From the NCBI GenBank assembly GCA_018402015.1, contig JAGYJL010000004.1:25357-89356 (forward strand): a DNA stretch of 64,000 nucleotides. The letters run 5' to 3'. The position numbers and the translations under genes are program-made. Position 1 is the first letter of the stretch; the number at the start of each line of letters is the position of its first letter. This DNA comes from Flavobacteriales bacterium (GTDB taxonomy: Bacteria > Bacteroidota > Bacteroidia > UBA10329). Shown here piece by piece: positions 38,068 to 49,657 of this stretch. The notes below the pieces were generated by a model that was not told the DNA's origin, ran no database searches, and saw only the letters and a program-made list of their open reading frames with translations.

Positions 38068-38217
38068 GAAAAAGCCTATGTTGGAAATTGTCTTAATTCA
38101 GGCAACCCGAACGTAGATTAATGGTCTATTGTTCGAACCTTTTTGAACATTGTCCGTAAGGCGATGTTTTGTCAGTCATCCAATTCTAATTTCGTAAAAC
38201 CATTTAAAACAAATTAT

Positions 38218-39042
38218 ATGAAGAAGAAGTTTACCATCGCCTTATCGTTGCTATTGATGACCGGAATGGTCTATGATTACAATATGCGAACGGTTCAATC
38301 GAGTAGTTCAGGTGCTCCAAACGGTTATACTGGAGATCCTGCTGTTAACAATGGAGCTACATGTGGTTCTGGAGGCGGATGCCACGGAAGTCAGCCAGGT
38401 ACCCCATCTGGAAACGAGTCTTCTATGATAACCTCCAATATTCCTCAAGCAGGATACGTTGCCGGACAGACCTATGATATGACTGTTTCTGTATCTGGTG
38501 GTGGTAATAAATTTGGGTTTTCGCTTTCTGCTCAAGGAAACGCGGGTTCGCTTATCGCTTCCTCTTCTACGCAGCTCAATGGAAGCGGTAACTTCGTTAC
38601 GCACACCTTTAGTTCAAATACGGGTTCTGGTGGCCGATCTTGGAATTTCCAATGGACCGCTCCTACCGCTGGTACAGGTGATGTAACGTTCTACGCCACA
38701 ACCTTATATGCTTTCAATGGCGGTGATGGTGGCGATGTTGCTGTTCCAGTGAGTATAACAGTTTCTGAAGCTACTGGTGTAGGTATAAGCGAAGCAGCAT
38801 TGGAAGCACTTTCTGTTTACCCGAATCCGGTAATTGATGAGATTCATGTTGCAGCCAAGGATGTAGATGAGGAGATATTGTTCACATTGTACAGCATGGA
38901 TGGCAAAAAAGTGTTGGAAGAGAAGCACGATGGAGGTGATATCACCATTGATCTTTCAAGCAAAAGCCTTACTACTGGCGTTTACTTCCTTCAGATGGAG
39001 GCTGTTGGTAGTAGCACCATCAAAAAGTTGTTGGTTAAATAA
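38218..39042 (+). CDS. Choice-of-anchor-V-like protein with T9SS type A sorting domain
   Basis: SSSGAPNGYTGDPAVNNGATCGSGGGCHGSQ and YNMTV-like/KFGFSLSAQ region; C-terminal VYPNPVIDEIHVAAKD...GVYFLQMEAVGSSTIKKLLVK. Confidence 0.75.
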   Translation: MKKKFTIALSLLLMTGMVYDYNMRTVQSSSSGAPNGYTGDPAVNNGATCGSGGGCHGSQPGTPSGNESSMITSNIPQAGYVAGQTYDMTVSVSGGGNKFGFSLSAQGNAGSLIASSSTQLNGSGNFVTHTFSSNTGSGGRSWNFQWTAPTAGTGDVTFYATTLYAFNGGDGGDVAVPVSITVSEATGVGISEAALEALSVYPNPVIDEIHVAAKDVDEEILFTLYSMDGKKVLEEKHDGGDITIDLSSKSLTTGVYFLQMEAVGSSTIKKLLVK

Positions 39043-39700: not shown

Positions 39701-40144
39701 TCACTGCGCATTTACCGTAACCGTGCTGGAGCTAACACGGTTGCTCTCGTTGCCAGCTCTGTCTACAACCCAAATGGTGTACGTAACCGATTCGCTTGCA
39801 TTGCCATTAACAATAGCGGTATTTGGAAGCGTAACGTTAAGGTTGCCTTGTATAGAGATGTTGGCATTATCTGGCGCTAGTTGTTGAATGCGGAAACCAT
39901 AGGCCACCTGATTTCTCGAATCTTGGATGTACAGGTTATCGTTATCCGTATTGTTCTGCCCGAGGTCGCCATCTCCATCTAAATAAGAAATGGTGAATAC
40001 CAGCGAATCCTGATACTCGGTAACCACATTGGGAACCACACTTACGAACGAAATTTCAGGCACTTCGCTTATCTCGGTAGTCTCGTTGCAAGAAGATAAG
40101 CCGAATGCGGTGGCCGTAAATAGAAGAAGCAACAATTGTTTCAT
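39701..40144 (-). CDS. Hypothetical lipoprotein, last gene of DUF1501-like operon
   Basis: MKQLLLLLFTATAFGLSSCNE lipobox; ATGA overlap with 40141-41127. Confidence 0.7.
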   Translation of the reverse strand: MKQLLLLLFTATAFGLSSCNETTEISEVPEISFVSVVPNVVTEYQDSLVFTISYLDGDGDLGQNNTDNDNLYIQDSRNQVAYGFRIQQLAPDNANISIQGNLNVTLPNTAIVNGNASESVTYTIWVVDRAGNESNRVSSSTVTVNAQ

Positions 40145-41127
40145 GGCAGAACGTAGAATGACCAAAAGGTCTTGTATTGAATGACCATTTCATCACGCGG
40201 CATCTCTGTTTGGCTTTCGCCATCGCTTACATAGTAGCGCATGTAAACCACGTTATCTGGGTTGAACAGGTTGGTGTTGAACTGAACGTACCAAAAGGTG
40301 AACCCTGGGTAATTGATGAATTGCGCATTCTGTTGATGGAAACCGGGAGCTGATGCTGAGAAATCGTCTGGGTCGTAAGAGAATTTCATCATGGAGCCTT
40401 GAAGTTGAGCAAGGGCCGTGCTATCGTCTTCTACGCCAATTACCAAGGCCACATTGCGGTTATCTGCCAAAATGAACGGGTTGTAGTATACACCATCAAT
40501 TCTGTTACCCGTTGCCGTAAGTGGGAAGTTCTGGTTGGCAGCTGCAATCACTCCGTCAATACTCATGGTATCCACGCCCACATAGAAACCGATCTGAGGT
40601 GCCTGGTTGGGATAGGAAGGAATCTCTCCGAACATGTTCTTGGCGCCATCCATTATCCAATTCTCGATGCGTTGGATGTAGGACGATTCCAACGGAACAC
40701 CGATGTTATCCTGCGGCATGCGATCGTTGGTGTTTGCAAAACAGCAATTGGTCAAACGTTCGTGCAGTACGCTCTGCGCAGTATCAAAAGGCACTACTCT
40801 AAAGGTGAAACTTGAATCAGGATCGTTCTTGACAATGTTGGCATAGACCATGGTTGACGAAGAACTCTGAACGGTTCTGAAATCAGGCTCGAAGTTGCCA
40901 TCATGACACCCAGGCACAGCACAACGCGGTTGCAGAATATCGCGATGTATAGCCACGATCGTATTCGGGCTGAGCGTATCAATGGGTGCCGGAGGTGTTG
41001 GGTAAACGATATTGTCGTACGGGTTTGGCGGAATCTCCGTTTCCGAGTTACACCCAACGAACGAGGCTACCACTGCCATCGAAAAACCGAAAGCAGCTAC
41101 CAAAGCAATGTTCTTCATCTTCATCAT
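40141..41127 (-). CDS. Hypothetical lipoprotein with CX4CH (CAVPGCH) heme-like motif
   Basis: VASFVGCNSETEIPP lipobox; IVAIHRDILQPRCAVPGCHDGNFEPDFRT. Confidence 0.7.
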   Translation of the reverse strand: MMKMKNIALVAAFGFSMAVVASFVGCNSETEIPPNPYDNIVYPTPPAPIDTLSPNTIVAIHRDILQPRCAVPGCHDGNFEPDFRTVQSSSSTMVYANIVKNDPDSSFTFRVVPFDTAQSVLHERLTNCCFANTNDRMPQDNIGVPLESSYIQRIENWIMDGAKNMFGEIPSYPNQAPQIGFYVGVDTMSIDGVIAAANQNFPLTATGNRIDGVYYNPFILADNRNVALVIGVEDDSTALAQLQGSMMKFSYDPDDFSASAPGFHQQNAQFINYPGFTFWYVQFNTNLFNPDNVVYMRYYVSDGESQTEMPRDEMVIQYKTFWSFYVLP

Positions 41128-42419
41128 ACTAAAGCTGCATCAAGCGGTTGACCAGGAAGCAATCCCGAAACATCATCATAGAAACCGAGGATCTTAGCAA
41201 TGGTGGGCACCACATCGATACTCTCGCCCATTACCTGACTGATAACCTGATTTTGAACCACCTTGCCAGATGGTCCTGCAACGAGACAGAAGATCTCTCT
41301 CGACATATCATCATTGGTATGATCCAACGCATAGCGACCAAAGGCATCTACCACGGTATTCGGTTGGGCGTTTCGGCCGTGTTCCGGAACGGCTATCAGA
41401 ATGGTATTGTCGGCCATTCCCGGGGTCGATTGGATGGTCTGCCAGAGGTGAGCCAAGGCATAATCGGCACGCACCAAATTGTTGGCGTATGCAGTAAAGT
41501 TGGTGTGGCAGATATCCACATCCTGCATGTTTACTACCAATAGTTCAGGCTTGAATTGCTCGATGATCTTCTCGGCAGCCAACACATTGAATTGATCACC
41601 ATTCAACCCACCTATTCCCCACGGGTTGTTGTAAGCACCAGAAGCCGCTTCTGTGTACGTTTGAAGAATAAATGCCTCTATGGCTTCCTTATCGGTAGAG
41701 GTGTTGCTTATTCCGGCCGAACCTTCTATAAACTGATTATTGAAGTTATTGTCGAAGAAGCTGCGCATCTCATTGGTCAGATTCTTCTGATTCTGTGTGA
41801 ACGTTTTCGGTTCGTTCAGTGCATTGTATGCCTCTGTACTGATAAGCGAAGCAGGCTGCATGTAATTGGCGCCATATAGAGGGCCATAGTTTGGATGCGT
41901 ACTGTAGTTCAATGCCGGATAAGGTCCTAAGGCGTTGCTTACCCACCACGCATTCTTGGCACTGGCCTCGGGGCTGGTGTGCTTTCTGTACAGCTCAAAA
42001 ACCGTTGGGCTGGCAGGCCGCTGGCGGATATTAATGTCCTGCTGATTGTAAACACCAGTAATAACAGATGTATGTCCACTGAAGTGACCCGTTGGCCCTT
42101 GCTGAAAGCGGAATTCTTTGAAAAGTGTACCCACTTCCTGTAGTCGTTGGCTGCCAACCTGACCAAGTAGATTAACTCCGCCAGCAATATCATTCGAAAT
42201 GCTTTCAGAACCTGTAAGTGTGTTGGGCATGAGGTTGCCATCTGCCTTATGCACCGATTCCAGATTACGTACACCACCCGCAAACAGGCAGAACACCACG
42301 TGGTCTACCACTCGTGCTCCGGTAGCGGCAAACAGTCTGCCCGAAGGAAGAATGTACGGTGCTGCAAATGCTCCTGCTGTTGCGGCCGCTGCTTTTTTTA
42401 TGAATCCTCTTCTTTTCAT
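41124..42419 (-). CDS. DUF1501-like, Tat-exported protein
   Basis: MKRRGFIKKAAAATAGAFAAPYILP Tat-type leader; DHVVFCLFAGGVRNLESVH, NTILIAVPEHGRNAQPNTVVDAFGRYALDHTNDD. Confidence 0.75.
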   Translation of the reverse strand: MKRRGFIKKAAAATAGAFAAPYILPSGRLFAATGARVVDHVVFCLFAGGVRNLESVHKADGNLMPNTLTGSESISNDIAGGVNLLGQVGSQRLQEVGTLFKEFRFQQGPTGHFSGHTSVITGVYNQQDINIRQRPASPTVFELYRKHTSPEASAKNAWWVSNALGPYPALNYSTHPNYGPLYGANYMQPASLISTEAYNALNEPKTFTQNQKNLTNEMRSFFDNNFNNQFIEGSAGISNTSTDKEAIEAFILQTYTEAASGAYNNPWGIGGLNGDQFNVLAAEKIIEQFKPELLVVNMQDVDICHTNFTAYANNLVRADYALAHLWQTIQSTPGMADNTILIAVPEHGRNAQPNTVVDAFGRYALDHTNDDMSREIFCLVAGPSGKVVQNQVISQVMGESIDVVPTIAKILGFYDDVSGLLPGQPLDAALV

Positions 42420-42428
42420 GGCTGCTTC

Positions 42429-42929
42429 TTAATAGTAACGGTATTCATTGGAGGTCATAATGGCAAAATAGACCAACTCGGGCGTGATATCTTCATTCTC
42501 CTCTATCACATTCTTCATATGCCACAACTCGAATTCGTTCGGGTAGCGGTTCAGAAATTTCTGATAGGTGTCTAACAGAAACTGATCTACGTTGGCACGC
42601 ATCTGTGCATCGGTTGGAATGATAACGGTTGGCTCGTTCAAGAAATTCTTGATAATGAGTTCCTCAATGAGTTTCAGATCGCCAAAACCAGCATACGGAA
42701 CAGCCAATGTTTGCAATTGCGCTTGGCTGATGTTCTGCCCAAAAAGGTCGGTGTAAGCAATGGAGATGAACTCCGAAAGGCTCTTTACATAATCCTTATT
42801 AGCATTGGGTTGCTGTACGTTCACATCATTCACATCGTAAATGATGTTCTGCTCTTTCTGGCACCCGGAAACAACGGTAAGCATCAGCGCTGCCGATAGA
42901 ACCAACTGTATGTGCTTTATCATTTTCAT
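42429..42929 (-). CDS. Hypothetical lipoprotein with one 'YQKFLNRYPNEFE' DUF1553/DUF1800-like tail
   Basis: MLTVVSGCQKE lipobox; LDTYQKFLNRYPNEFELWHMK...FAIMTSNEYRYY. Confidence 0.65.
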   Translation of the reverse strand: MKMIKHIQLVLSAALMLTVVSGCQKEQNIIYDVNDVNVQQPNANKDYVKSLSEFISIAYTDLFGQNISQAQLQTLAVPYAGFGDLKLIEELIIKNFLNEPTVIIPTDAQMRANVDQFLLDTYQKFLNRYPNEFELWHMKNVIEENEDITPELVYFAIMTSNEYRYY

Positions 42930-43804
42930 AATCCTGCAAATTCGTCAAGCGAAAGAATGTCTTTCTGTAATCGGTCGTAATTGCCAGAATCGCGGTAGCG
43001 AATGGCGTGGTAGCTTTGTTCCTCCGATGTCGGTTCACGGAAGAGGTACTTGAAATACAGCTCGCGCACCTGTCCTTCAAAGTAATCGTCCGAGTTGAGG
43101 AAGATCTCTACGAACTGTTCTTTGGAGTTGCCTGTTTCGTAGAATACCACCGCCACAAAACCATCTACCATGGTTATGCCTGCATCGTGTTCCTCGGAAG
43201 TGGGGTCTCTGTATAGGAAGTTATTGAACAGACTCAGTACAAAATTGAACGATCCCATGTTTATCTGATCGTAGATCTCGTTGCTTACCAATCTGCGGTG
43301 CATTTCCTGCATACCAATGGTGCCGTTTCTGAAATCGTTTGGCGTTGCCAGAAGCGTTTCCAGGTTGTCGATCACCTCAATAATGAGGTCGTAAAACTGC
43401 GCGTACTGCGGATCGTTCAGGAGTGAGTTGTAGATGAAGATCTGTGTTTGGATCTCTGTAGTGTCGAAAGCCGAGTTAAGCAGTTTAATGGAGTTGAATT
43501 CTAGGATCTTATCGCGGTATTCGCTATAGCTCAGAATCTCGTCTATCATCTCGTTTCTGCTGGCCACGCTCATGTTGCTGGCGCGTAAGAGCGCTACCGC
43601 ATCTGCCTCTTCGGTAGGCGATGGGTCTCTACCCAGCAGACTGATGTAGCATTTGGCCACATAATTTTCGAGTATAAGTGTTGAGATGGTTGAATCTGGC
43701 GGAGCCGTGTTATCATCTAATATGATATCGTCCTTTTTGCAACCTGTTGCGGCAATAATTACCAGCAACATAAGAATGGAAAAACCCGAAAGGATACTTT
43801 TCAT
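42926..43804 (-). CDS. Hypothetical lipoprotein with three LGRDPTxEE-type repeats
   Basis: MKSILSGFSILMLLVIIAATGCKKDD; ISLLGRDPSPTEEADAV, NNFLYRDPTSEEHDAG, KYLFREPTSEEQSYHA. Confidence 0.65.
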   Translation of the reverse strand: MKSILSGFSILMLLVIIAATGCKKDDIILDDNTAPPDSTISTLILENYVAKCYISLLGRDPSPTEEADAVALLRASNMSVASRNEMIDEILSYSEYRDKILEFNSIKLLNSAFDTTEIQTQIFIYNSLLNDPQYAQFYDLIIEVIDNLETLLATPNDFRNGTIGMQEMHRRLVSNEIYDQINMGSFNFVLSLFNNFLYRDPTSEEHDAGITMVDGFVAVVFYETGNSKEQFVEIFLNSDDYFEGQVRELYFKYLFREPTSEEQSYHAIRYRDSGNYDRLQKDILSLDEFAGL

Positions 43805-45388: not shown

Positions 45389-47470
45389 ATGAGAGGATCG
45401 ATAACATACATTCTGGCTTTGCTGCTTTGTGGTAATACTGCAATGGCACAACTGGTGGTTGATGCTGGTTACAGCCCGCAGCAATTGGTAGAAGACGTGT
45501 TGGTTGGGCAAGGAGTAGAAGTAAGTAACTTCTCGTTTTCTGGAAATGCCGATGCCAGAGGTTATTTCGATGGCAGCAATTCCAACATCGGTCTTTCCGA
45601 AGGAATCATCATTTCCACGGGGCGTGCCTCTGATGCACCCGGACCTAACGGAACTCCCTTGAGTGATTACGGAACCGAGTTTGGTGGTAATGGCGACTTT
45701 ACATTGACCAATATTTCGGGCTCTCCAACCTTTGATGCGGCCATTCTCGAATTCGATTTCGTCCCTTCGTCCGACACTGTTCAGTTCAAATACGTTTTCG
45801 CTTCCAACGAATACATGTTGTATGTAGGTGCTCAGGTGAATGATGCCTTCGCATTCTTAATAAGCGGACCCGGCATTGTTGGCGAACAGAATGTGGCCTT
45901 GATTCCCGGTACGGGCACTCCTGTTACCATCGATAATGTGAATGCCAACGTCAACGCGCAGTATTACATCGATAACGAGAACCCACCTGGTGCTACGGTA
46001 GAGTACAACGGATGGACGCAACCATTCACGGCCAAAGCCATTCTTGAACCCTGCGAAACGTATCATATCCGATTGGCCATTGCCGATGGTGGCGATGAGC
46101 AATTTGACAGTGCCGTGTTCCTGGAAGCAGGAAGTTTTACCAGTCCATCCATCAGCATTAATGCAGAATCGTCTTATTCTGCATCAAGCACCGCCCTGCA
46201 ATTGGTAGAAGGTTGTAGCTCGCTCACCCTCAGTTTCGAAAGGTCGGAGCCGTACGATAATCCACTAAGCGTTGGTTTGAATATTACTGGCTCGGCCACG
46301 GTAGGTTCAGACGTAACCAATATTCCATCCAACATCAGTTTTGCGCCTGGCGCTTCCACTACTTCCATCACATTCAGTGTTATAGAAGATGGCGTAATTG
46401 AAGGAGTGGAGGACATGACCATTTCTATCGATCAGTTGAATCCCTGTGCTACTGGACCTGCCACTTCGGTAACCTTTACCATAGAAGATGCAGCTCCAAT
46501 GGCTATTCAGATCACGCCCGATGTAAACCTTGATTGCCCTGAAGAATTAGACATTACTGTTACAGCTACTGGCGGTTATCCGGAATATACCTACAATTGG
46601 AATGGTTCTCCCGATTCAGACGAATCCATTACTGTTTTCCCATTCAATACAACTACTTACACGGTGAATGTCACCGATGCTTGCGGCTTCACACAATCGG
46701 CTTCGTCCACCGTTTCAGTGCTTACGTATCAGACCATGAACGTATCTGTAAACGATGCAGTGGTCTGTAATGGCGATGAAGCCACCTTTGAGGTAGTGGT
46801 TACTGGCGGCAGGCAGCCGGTTACTTACAGTTGGTCGGGCGGAGGTAGCGGCCCGATCTTTACCTATACGCCAATGCAGGATGAGACCGTTACCGTTACC
46901 GTTACGGACGATTGCAATATTTCTGAAGACGCCATAGGACAGGTTGAGGTTGATGAGGTGCAGGCAAGTTTCACCTACCAATTGATAGCGCATAGCACGG
47001 TCCAATTCACACCAACTACCGTTGATGTGTTCGATTTTTTCTGGGAATTCGGAGACGATTCTACAGGTGTCAGGGAAAACGCGGTCCATGAATATCAGGA
47101 GGCTGGAGATTATCCGGTTGCGCTTACGGTGGTCAATCAGAACGGTTGCGAAACCACTTTGTATGATACCGTAACGGTTTACGACCCGCTACATGTGTAC
47201 ATTCCAAACGCCTTTACACCCAATGGAGATAGTTTGAATGAGTGGTTCGGTGTAATAGGAGAGGGCTACCTTTATTACGATCTTGAGATTTACGATAGGT
47301 GGGGTAAACTGCTTAAGCACGGTCGGTTCAGAGACGATAGCGCTTGGGATGGTACCTTCAATGGCAGGTTGGTCCCAACTGGGATGTATGTCTACAAAGT
47401 TTGGGTTGAGCCGCCCATTGGAATTGAGGTGAAGGAAACAGGCGTGGTCCACGTGCTCTCGGGGGAATAA
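45389..47470 (+). CDS. Choice-of-anchor L / PKD protein with gliding-motility-type (T9SS type B) C-terminal domain
   Basis: QLVVDAGYSPQQLVEDVLVGQGVEVSNFSFSG...; IPNAFTPNGDSLNEWFG...IYDRWGKLLKHG...GMYVYKVWV. Confidence 0.85.
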   Translation: MRGSITYILALLLCGNTAMAQLVVDAGYSPQQLVEDVLVGQGVEVSNFSFSGNADARGYFDGSNSNIGLSEGIIISTGRASDAPGPNGTPLSDYGTEFGGNGDFTLTNISGSPTFDAAILEFDFVPSSDTVQFKYVFASNEYMLYVGAQVNDAFAFLISGPGIVGEQNVALIPGTGTPVTIDNVNANVNAQYYIDNENPPGATVEYNGWTQPFTAKAILEPCETYHIRLAIADGGDEQFDSAVFLEAGSFTSPSISINAESSYSASSTALQLVEGCSSLTLSFERSEPYDNPLSVGLNITGSATVGSDVTNIPSNISFAPGASTTSITFSVIEDGVIEGVEDMTISIDQLNPCATGPATSVTFTIEDAAPMAIQITPDVNLDCPEELDITVTATGGYPEYTYNWNGSPDSDESITVFPFNTTTYTVNVTDACGFTQSASSTVSVLTYQTMNVSVNDAVVCNGDEATFEVVVTGGRQPVTYSWSGGGSGPIFTYTPMQDETVTVTVTDDCNISEDAIGQVEVDEVQASFTYQLIAHSTVQFTPTTVDVFDFFWEFGDDSTGVRENAVHEYQEAGDYPVALTVVNQNGCETTLYDTVTVYDPLHVYIPNAFTPNGDSLNEWFGVIGEGYLYYDLEIYDRWGKLLKHGRFRDDSAWDGTFNGRLVPTGMYVYKVWVEPPIGIEVKETGVVHVLSGE

Positions 47471-47482
47471 CCGTCACCTTAT

Positions 47483-49657
47483 ATGCTTAAACGAATACTT
47501 GCGTTTTCTCTCGTGCTAATTGCGATGGTCTTTCAGGCCAACGCAGCGCATCTTGTTGGTGGTGAGATATTCTACGAATGCCTCGGTAATGATCAATATC
47601 GCATAACACTCAAAGTTTATCGCGATTGTTACACGGTTACAGGTGCTGATTTTGATAATCCTGCCAACATTGCGGTTTACGATGATGCAGGTAACCTGAT
47701 AGAAAACCTGACAGCACCATTCACAGGTTCTCAGCAATTACCGGTCATTATCAATAATCCATGCTTGCAAGCTCCGCCAGATGTATGTGTAGAAGAGGCA
47801 ATTTATACCGTTACAACAACTCTACCATTCATTTCTGGAGGATATCATATTGCGTATCAAAGGTGCTGCCGTAATCCTACTATTCTCAACCTGATAGCAC
47901 CCGATGATCTTGGCTCTACGTATTACGTTCGAGTGCCCGAACTAGCGCTCAATTCGTGTAACTCCAGTCCATCGTTCAACAGTTTTCCTCCGTTGGCACT
48001 GTGCATTGGCGATCAACTCATTTTCGACCATTCTGCTACCGATGCCGAAGGGGATATGCTCGTTTACACGCTTTGCACGCCTTACCATGGAGGAAGTTCA
48101 ACCAATCCGCAGCCAATACCAGCGCAAGGGCCACCATACAGTTTCATCAACTGGGATGCAGGTTATTCTGATGCCTATCCGTTAGATGCATCCACCCAAT
48201 TGACAATAGATCCCAGCACGGGTTTGCTTACTGGAGTTCCTTCTCAAGCGGGCCAGTACGTGGTGGGAGTGTGTGTGGAGGAGTATCGGAACGGAGAACT
48301 CATCAGTGTAAATAAGCGAGATTTTCAGTTCAATGTGGTCAACTGTTCTTCCAATATTGAAGCTATCATTCCACCACAGCCCATTTTTCATGATCCATGC
48401 GATGGGCTGACGGTTGACTTCGGCAATCAGAGTATCAATGCCCAATATTACCATTGGGATTTTGGTGTGCTGGGAGTAACGGACGATACATCGAATCTTG
48501 AAGACCCTGTGTACACTTATCCCGATACAGGTTCATACCTCGTTACATTGGTTGCTAACCCTGGTTTCCCGTGTGCAGATACCACGCAACGCACAGTTCT
48601 AGTCTACAATGATATTGAAGTGGAAATATTCAGTCTTGGCGAGCAGTGTTTCGATGCCAGTGCCATCGATTTCTCTCCTGTTGGGGATTTCGGGGCGGGA
48701 GCAACTTTCTTTTGGGAATTTGAGAACGGGATACCTGCCACGTCAACAGAAATGAACCCACAGGGAATCGTCTTCGGCACAGTTGGTTCGTATGAGGTTA
48801 CAGTAGCTGTAACGGAAGCTGTGTGCGTAGCTTCTGCTTCAAGTACCATTGAAATGTATCCTCGGCCACAGGCATCATTCATTGGCGATACCATTACAGG
48901 CTGCGCACCATTGGGTGTCCTGTTCATTGATAGTTCGTTGGCGTACACAACTCATTTTGCATCGTGGGATTTTGGAGATGGAACCACGGCTACTGGCGAA
49001 CGCGTCTTTCATGGTTACTTGCAACCCGGATCGTATGATGTGTCGCTTACCATCTGGACTACAGAAGGTTGTGTGGATACATCGGTTTTTGTGGTAGAGA
49101 ATGGTGTGGTAGTATTACCATTACCAACGGTTGAATTGTCGGTTGACACCAACATTCGATTTGTTTTTGAGCCTACCTTCCTATTTTCTGGTACAAGTAA
49201 CGCCTCATCGTACGAGTTTTATCCGGGAGATGGAAGTTCGTATGCTGATGTTGGGTCGCAATGCGAGATCGAACATTTCTACACAGACACAGGAAACTAC
49301 GAGGCCATCATTTATTTCACAGATGATTATGGCTGTGAGGCATCCGATACCGTTTGGGTACGTGTAGAACCCGAAGTAAGATTCTGGGTGCCGAATGCAT
49401 TTACCCCCAACGATGATCGGTTGAATGACGAGTGGGGTCCGAAGGCTTTTGGCTTCAGCGAATATGAGATATGGGTTTTTGACCGATGGGGAAAGATGAT
49501 GTTCCATTCCACAGACCCGTTTGAAAAATGGAACGGCAGGTTAAATAACGAAAGCAACCATGAACCGGTGTTGGGCGTCTATTCATATCGAATACTGGCG
49601 CGTTCTGTTAAGAATACTGTAATAAAGGAGTTTGGACACGTAACCATATTGAAATAA
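47483..49657 (+). CDS. Large secreted PKD protein with T9SS type B C-terminal domain
   Basis: AHLVGGEIFYECLGNDQYRITLKVYRDC; PKD-like FASWDFGDGTTATGERVFHGYLQPGSYDVSLTI; VPNAFTPNDDRLNDEWGP...VFDRWGKMMF. Confidence 0.85.
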   Translation: MLKRILAFSLVLIAMVFQANAAHLVGGEIFYECLGNDQYRITLKVYRDCYTVTGADFDNPANIAVYDDAGNLIENLTAPFTGSQQLPVIINNPCLQAPPDVCVEEAIYTVTTTLPFISGGYHIAYQRCCRNPTILNLIAPDDLGSTYYVRVPELALNSCNSSPSFNSFPPLALCIGDQLIFDHSATDAEGDMLVYTLCTPYHGGSSTNPQPIPAQGPPYSFINWDAGYSDAYPLDASTQLTIDPSTGLLTGVPSQAGQYVVGVCVEEYRNGELISVNKRDFQFNVVNCSSNIEAIIPPQPIFHDPCDGLTVDFGNQSINAQYYHWDFGVLGVTDDTSNLEDPVYTYPDTGSYLVTLVANPGFPCADTTQRTVLVYNDIEVEIFSLGEQCFDASAIDFSPVGDFGAGATFFWEFENGIPATSTEMNPQGIVFGTVGSYEVTVAVTEAVCVASASSTIEMYPRPQASFIGDTITGCAPLGVLFIDSSLAYTTHFASWDFGDGTTATGERVFHGYLQPGSYDVSLTIWTTEGCVDTSVFVVENGVVVLPLPTVELSVDTNIRFVFEPTFLFSGTSNASSYEFYPGDGSSYADVGSQCEIEHFYTDTGNYEAIIYFTDDYGCEASDTVWVRVEPEVRFWVPNAFTPNDDRLNDEWGPKAFGFSEYEIWVFDRWGKMMFHSTDPFEKWNGRLNNESNHEPVLGVYSYRILARSVKNTVIKEFGHVTILK

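Follow-up and report, generated by a model that had tools for sequence, protein, structure and literature searches.

Few gene families have been multiplied as strongly in planctomycetes as DUF1501 and its partners; the DUF1549 and DUF1553 domains each occur 41 times in Rhodopirellula baltica (PMC2754498). DUF1501 proteins pair with PSCyt1-DUF1549-DUF1553(PSD1) proteins in planctomycetes, Verrucomicrobia and some Bacteroidota (loci L155-L166, and RB10051 of Rhodopirellula), or with DUF1800 proteins (loci L168-L183), and the latter pair is also found beside a chitin synthase in Dickeya (PMC5122149). Here, a 64,000-nucleotide stretch from a Flavobacteriales bacterium (assembly GCA_018402015.1, contig JAGYJL010000004.1), referred to as the window, was analysed for a cassette of five minus-strand genes, P1 to P5, at positions 39701-43804. 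With moderate confidence, we read this cassette as the DUF1501-plus-partner system split into subunits, its five proteins being predicted to form a redox-type complex in the cell envelope. The component families are already known and their function is reported as unexplained (PMC5615132, PMC4452313); the papers searched contained no description of the split arrangement, of the CX4CH lipoprotein, of A and B cassettes with type IX cargo or of the histidine correspondence set out below.

P3 (41124-42419; this and all other cassette features are on the minus strand) encodes a protein of 431 amino acids (aa) that starts with MKRRGFIKKAA, a leader of the twin-arginine translocation (Tat) type with the RR in residues 3-4, and TatC is encoded in the source genome. 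Every PSD1 protein examined adjoins a protein with an RR leader, and a canonical DUF1501 profile was made from 13 proteins beside PSD1 genes, 12 of which had clear DUF1501 motifs. The P3 profile matched it over 374 columns (95% probability, E 3.7e-8), pairing PEHGRN with GEFGRT and ALDH with GRDHH, and the relation to DUF1501 put forward in the original prediction therefore extends over the whole length of P3. With signals trimmed the match was still E 5.8e-5 over the C-terminal 129 columns, and the profile comparison displayed the DUF1501 motif set GG, NH-x7/8-TG, WDxH, GEFGR and RDH. The AlphaFold model of P3, with a predicted local distance difference test (pLDDT) score of 85.9, matched sulfatases, phosphatases and lipoteichoic-acid synthases in Foldseek, with 461 PDB matches at E<=0.001 and the best to 1p49 (E 5.8e-11). 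The assignment of P3 to the alkaline-phosphatase/sulfatase fold rests on this model and Foldseek, because against the PDB the P3 sequence alone gave no match and its profile reached a sulfatase at 0.2 only.

The residues A47-G48-G49, H112, D302, H305, E346, R349, D366 and H367 were invariant in 94 of 94 aligned P3 homologues, and canonical DUF1501 has the same residue pattern in the same H-x8-TG register. Some of the 94 loci were picked by a pattern with FAGG or ILPxGRLFA, which inflates the conservation at those segments; alignment A1 of 28 sequences, made outside this selection, had the same invariants. His112 (42084-42086) stands, as in canonical DUF1501, nine residues ahead of the TG (or QG) closing the nucleophile helix, a place that by the sulfatase/phosphodiesterase signature we take to be the nucleophile position of the alkaline phosphatase superfamily, the correspondence to the hydrolases being set by motif spacing and not by structural superposition. 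D302-x2-H305 (41505-41516) are putative metal ligands, E346-x-G-R349 (41373-41384) is the counterpart of the DUF1501 GEFGR and the sulfatase DHGR, the DUF1501 E-x-G-R being aligned onto the sulfatase D-H-G-R by the tool itself, and D366-H367 (41319-41324) is the counterpart of the DUF1501 RDHH. Neither a Ser/Thr/formylglycine nucleophile nor the first Asp metal ligand was found in P3, where His112 and Ala47-Gly48-Gly49 take these places in all 94 homologues. Judged from these residues the classical nucleophile is lost, as in canonical DUF1501, and one metal site is probably kept. Since the nucleophile position is an invariant His, ordinary hydrolysis by P3 is doubtful; with Ala-Gly-Gly at the first Asp ligand position as well, the hydrolytic complex that had been suggested earlier is not supported in its classical form. 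The end of the Tat leader, PYILPSGRLFA (residues 21-31), was nearly invariant in both paralogues of P3, a degree of conservation that is unusual for a cleaved leader and that such a leader has no need of.

P4 (40141-41127) is a lipoprotein of 328 aa with an N-terminal PSCyt1-like cytochrome domain. This half matched the PSCyt1 of canonical Bacteroidota partners at 96.4% and E 1.1e-9 with signals trimmed, whereas unrelated control pairs of trimmed profiles were nearly all above 0.01 (lowest 0.0067), and the alignment paired ILQPRC with ILSDRC, RMP with MPP and WIMDGA with WIEQGA. That the heme-like part of the partner sits on a separate lipoprotein is thus supported; the domain had been misnamed, since the haem domain of planctomycete-type partners is PSCyt1 and PSD1 is DUF1553 itself. 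The CXXCH haem site of PSCyt1 is absent from P4; HRDILQPRCAVPGCHDG is present in the sequence, and a CX4CH motif (CAVPGCH, 40903-40923) occurs instead in 86 of 88 distinct homologues. In work on other cytochromes, CX4CH is accepted as a motif for haem (PMC10734462). The P4 profile also matched the c-type cytochrome FoxE at 0.0014, as did the PSCyt1-DUF1549-PSD1 profile at 5.5e-6, and a CcsA-type haem assembly protein is encoded in the source genome. P4 is likely a cytochrome, with the PSCyt1 domain standing free as a lipoprotein, and we are confident of the family anatomy of both P3 and P4. No family match was found for the C-terminal region of P4. The source genome has a third P4-like PSCyt1-type stretch (G000:C7:3455-3883, locus L186; E 1.1e-8).

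The five genes overlap or nearly touch, with ATGA overlaps at 42926-42929, 41124-41127 and 40141-40144 and a P2-P3 spacing of 9 base pairs (bp) in the window, and the coordinates and frames agree with the packing described in the original prediction. The four lipoboxes (...ATGC22 in P1, ...SGC23 in P2, ...VGC26 in P4 and ...SSC19 in P5) and the single Tat-type leader were likewise all found in the translations. The original prediction had made co-occurrence in other genomes its touchstone, and the five genes do co-occur: in 29 loci of related genomes plus 80 further ones of GTDB genomes, some being the same contig twice, the order P1-P2-P3-P4-P5 on one strand was found in 94 of 109, the exceptions being mostly contig ends. 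The operon is thus no accident. Median intergenic gaps were -4, 9, 1 and -1 bp (83 distinct complete loci, longest open reading frames). In an evenly drawn sample of 247 Bacteroidia genomes (P3 threshold E below 1e-100, genome sets compared by hand), P3 was present in 57, and the identical 57 have P1; one additional genome has a P1 fragment only, and 70 of 77 P1 matches adjoin a P3 match on the same contig. The source genome has two copies of the cassette, version A in the window and version B on another contig (locus L031). Sets A and B separate in each of the five protein trees with a support of 0.86-1.0, hence its genes have been passed on together ever since the cassette duplicated.

P1 (42926-43804) is a lipoprotein of 292 aa with three helical repeats resembling DUF4214 and phycobilisome linkers, and the C-terminal half of P2 (42429-42929; lipoprotein, 166 aa) is a further copy of this repeat. 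The motifs reported earlier are all present, LLGRDPSPTEE (43607-43639), FLYRDPTSEE (43190-43219) and YLFREPTSEE (43019-43048) in P1 and YQKFLNRYPNEFE (42528-42566), followed by ...SNEYRYY, in P2. As profiles, the three P1 repeats match one another at 7.6e-9, 3.1e-7 and 2.5e-5 and the P2 repeat at 2.7e-6, 9.7e-6 and 3e-4, placing their relation beyond chance. The untrimmed P1-P2 match was partly caused by signal peptides and was set aside, for which reason all profile tests were rerun without signals. The predicted structure of P1 (pLDDT 94.9) is an all-helical chain with three repeats. P1 scored 22.1 bits with Pfam DUF4214 (PF13946; cut-off 23.2), and DUF4214 was matched by 20 of 25 P1 members (best 3.1e-7) and 17 of 25 P2 members. 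A fold search with P1 returned phycobilisome linker domains with a probability of 0.96-1.0 over about 94 columns, the Foldseek E-values being >0.1.

DUF4214 being the best Pfam match of P1 and P2 and phycobilisome linkers the best PDB match (4.9e-6), the two lipoproteins might be adhesion or linker modules of the DUF4214 type that became associated with a DUF1501-like protein independently and are unrelated to DUF1549, DUF1553 and DUF1800. This explanation survives best among the alternatives and is a serious possibility, short of probable. It gains from the weakness of the matches to the partner families: P1 matched DUF1800 at 7e-5 over 72 of 501 columns, repeat 3 matched the PSD1 tail at 1.3e-4 and DUF1800 at 1.6e-4, and repeat 1 matched the start of DUF1549 at 1e-3 and PSD1 at 1.4e-3. 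It is weakened by several P1 and P2 repeats independently picking one PSD1 tail segment, by PSD1 and DUF1800 weakly matching each other (5.4e-4) in a nearby DUF1800 segment, and by weak Pfam PSD1 matches in 9 of 25 P1 members. Descent of P1 and P2 shared with the DUF1501 partners PSD1 and DUF1800 is probable from these profiles, while the family anatomy of the two proteins is evenly balanced. The original prediction of P1 and P2 as the partner's repeat and tail is weakly supported, as short matches of 30-72 columns to PSD1, DUF1549 and DUF1800 were recovered and whole-domain matches were not: the best repeats match DUF1549/DUF1553 over 30-50 columns (1.3e-4 to 0.0014), and the DUF1800 (PF08811) match of P1 is the short stretch of 72 columns.

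In version B a sixth gene directly follows P5 and encodes a protein of about 1,160-1,190 aa with CUB, PKD and CHU_C (type IX secretion) domains. It is present in nine loci of the first set and in the majority of the B loci added for this check; B loci without it are mostly contig ends or mis-called open reading frames, and L205 lacks it outright. The source genome's own sixth gene (L031 1392-4768, G000:C188) gave a piecewise match in different frames, which is a frameshift or an assembly error. This type IX cargo points to the cell surface as the workplace of at least version B. The start of P1, CKKDD, fits the optimal surface-export pattern of lipoproteins, C-X-K-(D/E)2-X (PMC5080379), and each of the four lipoprotein families most often has Lys at +3 with acidic residues after it.

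These observations could also be accommodated if the cassette served to assemble or anchor type IX cargo, with P3 as an inactive alkaline-phosphatase-fold binder, a reading that we find unlikely. The sixth protein in nearly all B loci, a CHU_C-bearing protein cluster of about 730 aa near version A in 31 of 95 distinct loci, two such CHU_C genes in the window and the missing canonical catalytic residues of P3 speak for it. Against it, a D/H/E/H set kept without change in 94 of 94 P3 homologues would be unusual in a dead enzyme, most A loci lack an adjoining cargo gene, and DUF1501 systems are known from planctomycetes and proteobacteria without type IX secretion (PMC5122149). SprA is encoded in the source genome and in 239 of 247 Bacteroidia genomes, and with SprA in almost every member of the class, a correlation between the cassette and type IX secretion says little. 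That P3 is an ordinary phosphodiesterase- or sulfatase-type hydrolase, to which the lipoproteins bind or present substrate while the P4 cysteines are structural, is in keeping with its Pfam Phosphodiest match (26.4 bits, cut-off 23) and the hundreds of sulfatase and phosphatase matches of its model, yet the His and Ala-Gly-Gly at the catalytic positions and the full PSCyt1 pattern of P4, including the RMP and WIxxGA segments and matching FoxE, make it quite improbable.

We return to the subunit-split DUF1501 system, in which P3, the DUF1501-like component, would be a substrate-facing metal protein, P4 its one-haem electron carrier, P1 and P2 a scaffold and P5 a small adaptor or spacer. The five proteins would assemble at the outer membrane, and in version B the same complex would work with the type IX cargo of about 1,160 aa on the cell surface. 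A redox-coupled reaction is likelier than hydrolysis of phosphate or sulfate esters, because the nucleophile position of P3 is His and the cytochrome is always with the complete cassette. The redox-type complex, suggested by the cytochrome domain and the lost hydrolase nucleophile, is plausible, if a little under evenly balanced. A bolder proposal, that DUF1501-type proteins are alkaline-phosphatase-fold proteins turned redox or histidine-nucleophile enzymes, with His at the former nucleophile position and a dedicated cytochrome feeding a D/H/E/H metal site, and that the cassette is the same machine with its parts separated, is a long shot.

Several points weigh against the split-system explanation. 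Pfam DUF1501 (PF07394) did not match P3 and matched 1 of 28 family members at 0.0032; P3 is named DUF1501-like and not DUF1501 because the profile similarity is present and the curated model unmatched. Pfam PSCyt1 (PF07635) matched none of 27 P4 family members, and haem binding by the CX4CH of P4 is a prediction from sequence. The resemblance of P1 and P2 to DUF1549, PSD1 and DUF1800 is limited to short stretches, a weaker signal that leaves common descent unproven. P3 has no lipobox and may therefore stay periplasmic unless carried further, while P1 looks surface-directed, which weakens the case for a surface complex. In DUF1501-DUF1800 pairs a cytochrome is not obvious, and redox chemistry therefore need not be the core function. 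Finally, the Cytophagales loci L099 and L107 have P3 (54% identity) with no P1, P2, P4 or P5 recognised nearby.

P5 (39701-40144) is a small lipoprotein of 147 aa for which no family match was found in the Pfam/NCBIfam comparison; its sequence pattern indicates a probable beta-sandwich of the immunoglobulin (Ig)-like kind. Mn_catalase, DUF2574, TraY and similar Pfam/NCBIfam names for single cassette proteins scored far under cut-off and were rejected. The end of P5 abuts that of a convergent YceI-like gene (39700/39701). An M20 peptidase gene lies upstream of the cassette on the same strand, from 43904; adjoining the cassette in 26 of 95 loci, mostly of version A, it is taken as a neighbour and not a component. 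Beyond it, two type IX secretion proteins (CHU_C, PKD) are encoded at 45389-47470 and 47483-49657 on the plus strand, divergent from the cassette. A Por_Secre_tail (type IX) protein with CGSGGGCHG (CX5CH) is encoded at 38209-39042 on the plus strand; a protein in the matching place of L042 has CARSGCH, and one in L043 has CXXCH. In L058 (6627-7724), P3 has an internal deletion of about 70 residues, the other cassette genes are absent and the M20 peptidase is still adjacent; this P3 is a decaying remnant. In L118 the cassette genes are dispersed. Several metagenome-assembled genomes whose titles read Chitinophaga pinensis or Chryseobacterium gleum seem to be misnamed, as they contain close relatives of this Flavobacteriales cassette.

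The cassette links three unexplained families, the DUF1501 partners DUF1549/DUF1553, DUF1800 and DUF4214, and draws attention to the histidine that takes the former nucleophile position in DUF1501 proteins, a site open to mutational testing. With its haem, scaffold and catalytic parts separate, each can be expressed, stained, deleted or pulled down individually, and the carriers include a cultured species, Phaeocystidibacter luteus (locus L114).

Compared with known systems, the cassette resembles the PSCyt1-DUF1549-PSD1 pairs in having a DUF1501-type Tat protein beside a PSCyt1 carrier, and in the R-x-P-(T/S)-x-x-E motif, which the canonical partner has in its PSD1 tail. It differs in having the partner's pieces as separate lipoproteins, CX4CH in place of CXXCH and an extra Ig-like lipoprotein, and most of DUF1549 and PSD1 is unrecognisable. 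With the DUF1501-DUF1800 pairs it shares a DUF1501-type protein, an all-helical partner and a stretch of about 70 residues in P1, whereas P1 is without the DUF1800 core and the cassette has four lipoproteins and an added cytochrome domain. P1 has the helical repeat with an LGRxPxxxE loop of DUF4214 and phycobilisome linkers (PF13946, PF00427; 8imk, 3osj), but is a Bacteroidota lipoprotein with no phycobilisome, and whole-protein TM-scores are low (0.24-0.32). Like the Fe(II)-oxidising cytochrome c FoxE (5mab), P4 and PSCyt1 have the Met-ligand/RMP and WI-x-x-GA segments; FoxE has two haems against one CX4CH site in P4, the match reaches E 0.0014 only, and iron oxidation is not implied. P3 shares its fold with the sulfatase/phosphodiesterase branch of the alkaline phosphatase superfamily (best 1p49), from which it and canonical DUF1501 differ by the His at the nucleophile position and the loss of the first Asp ligand.

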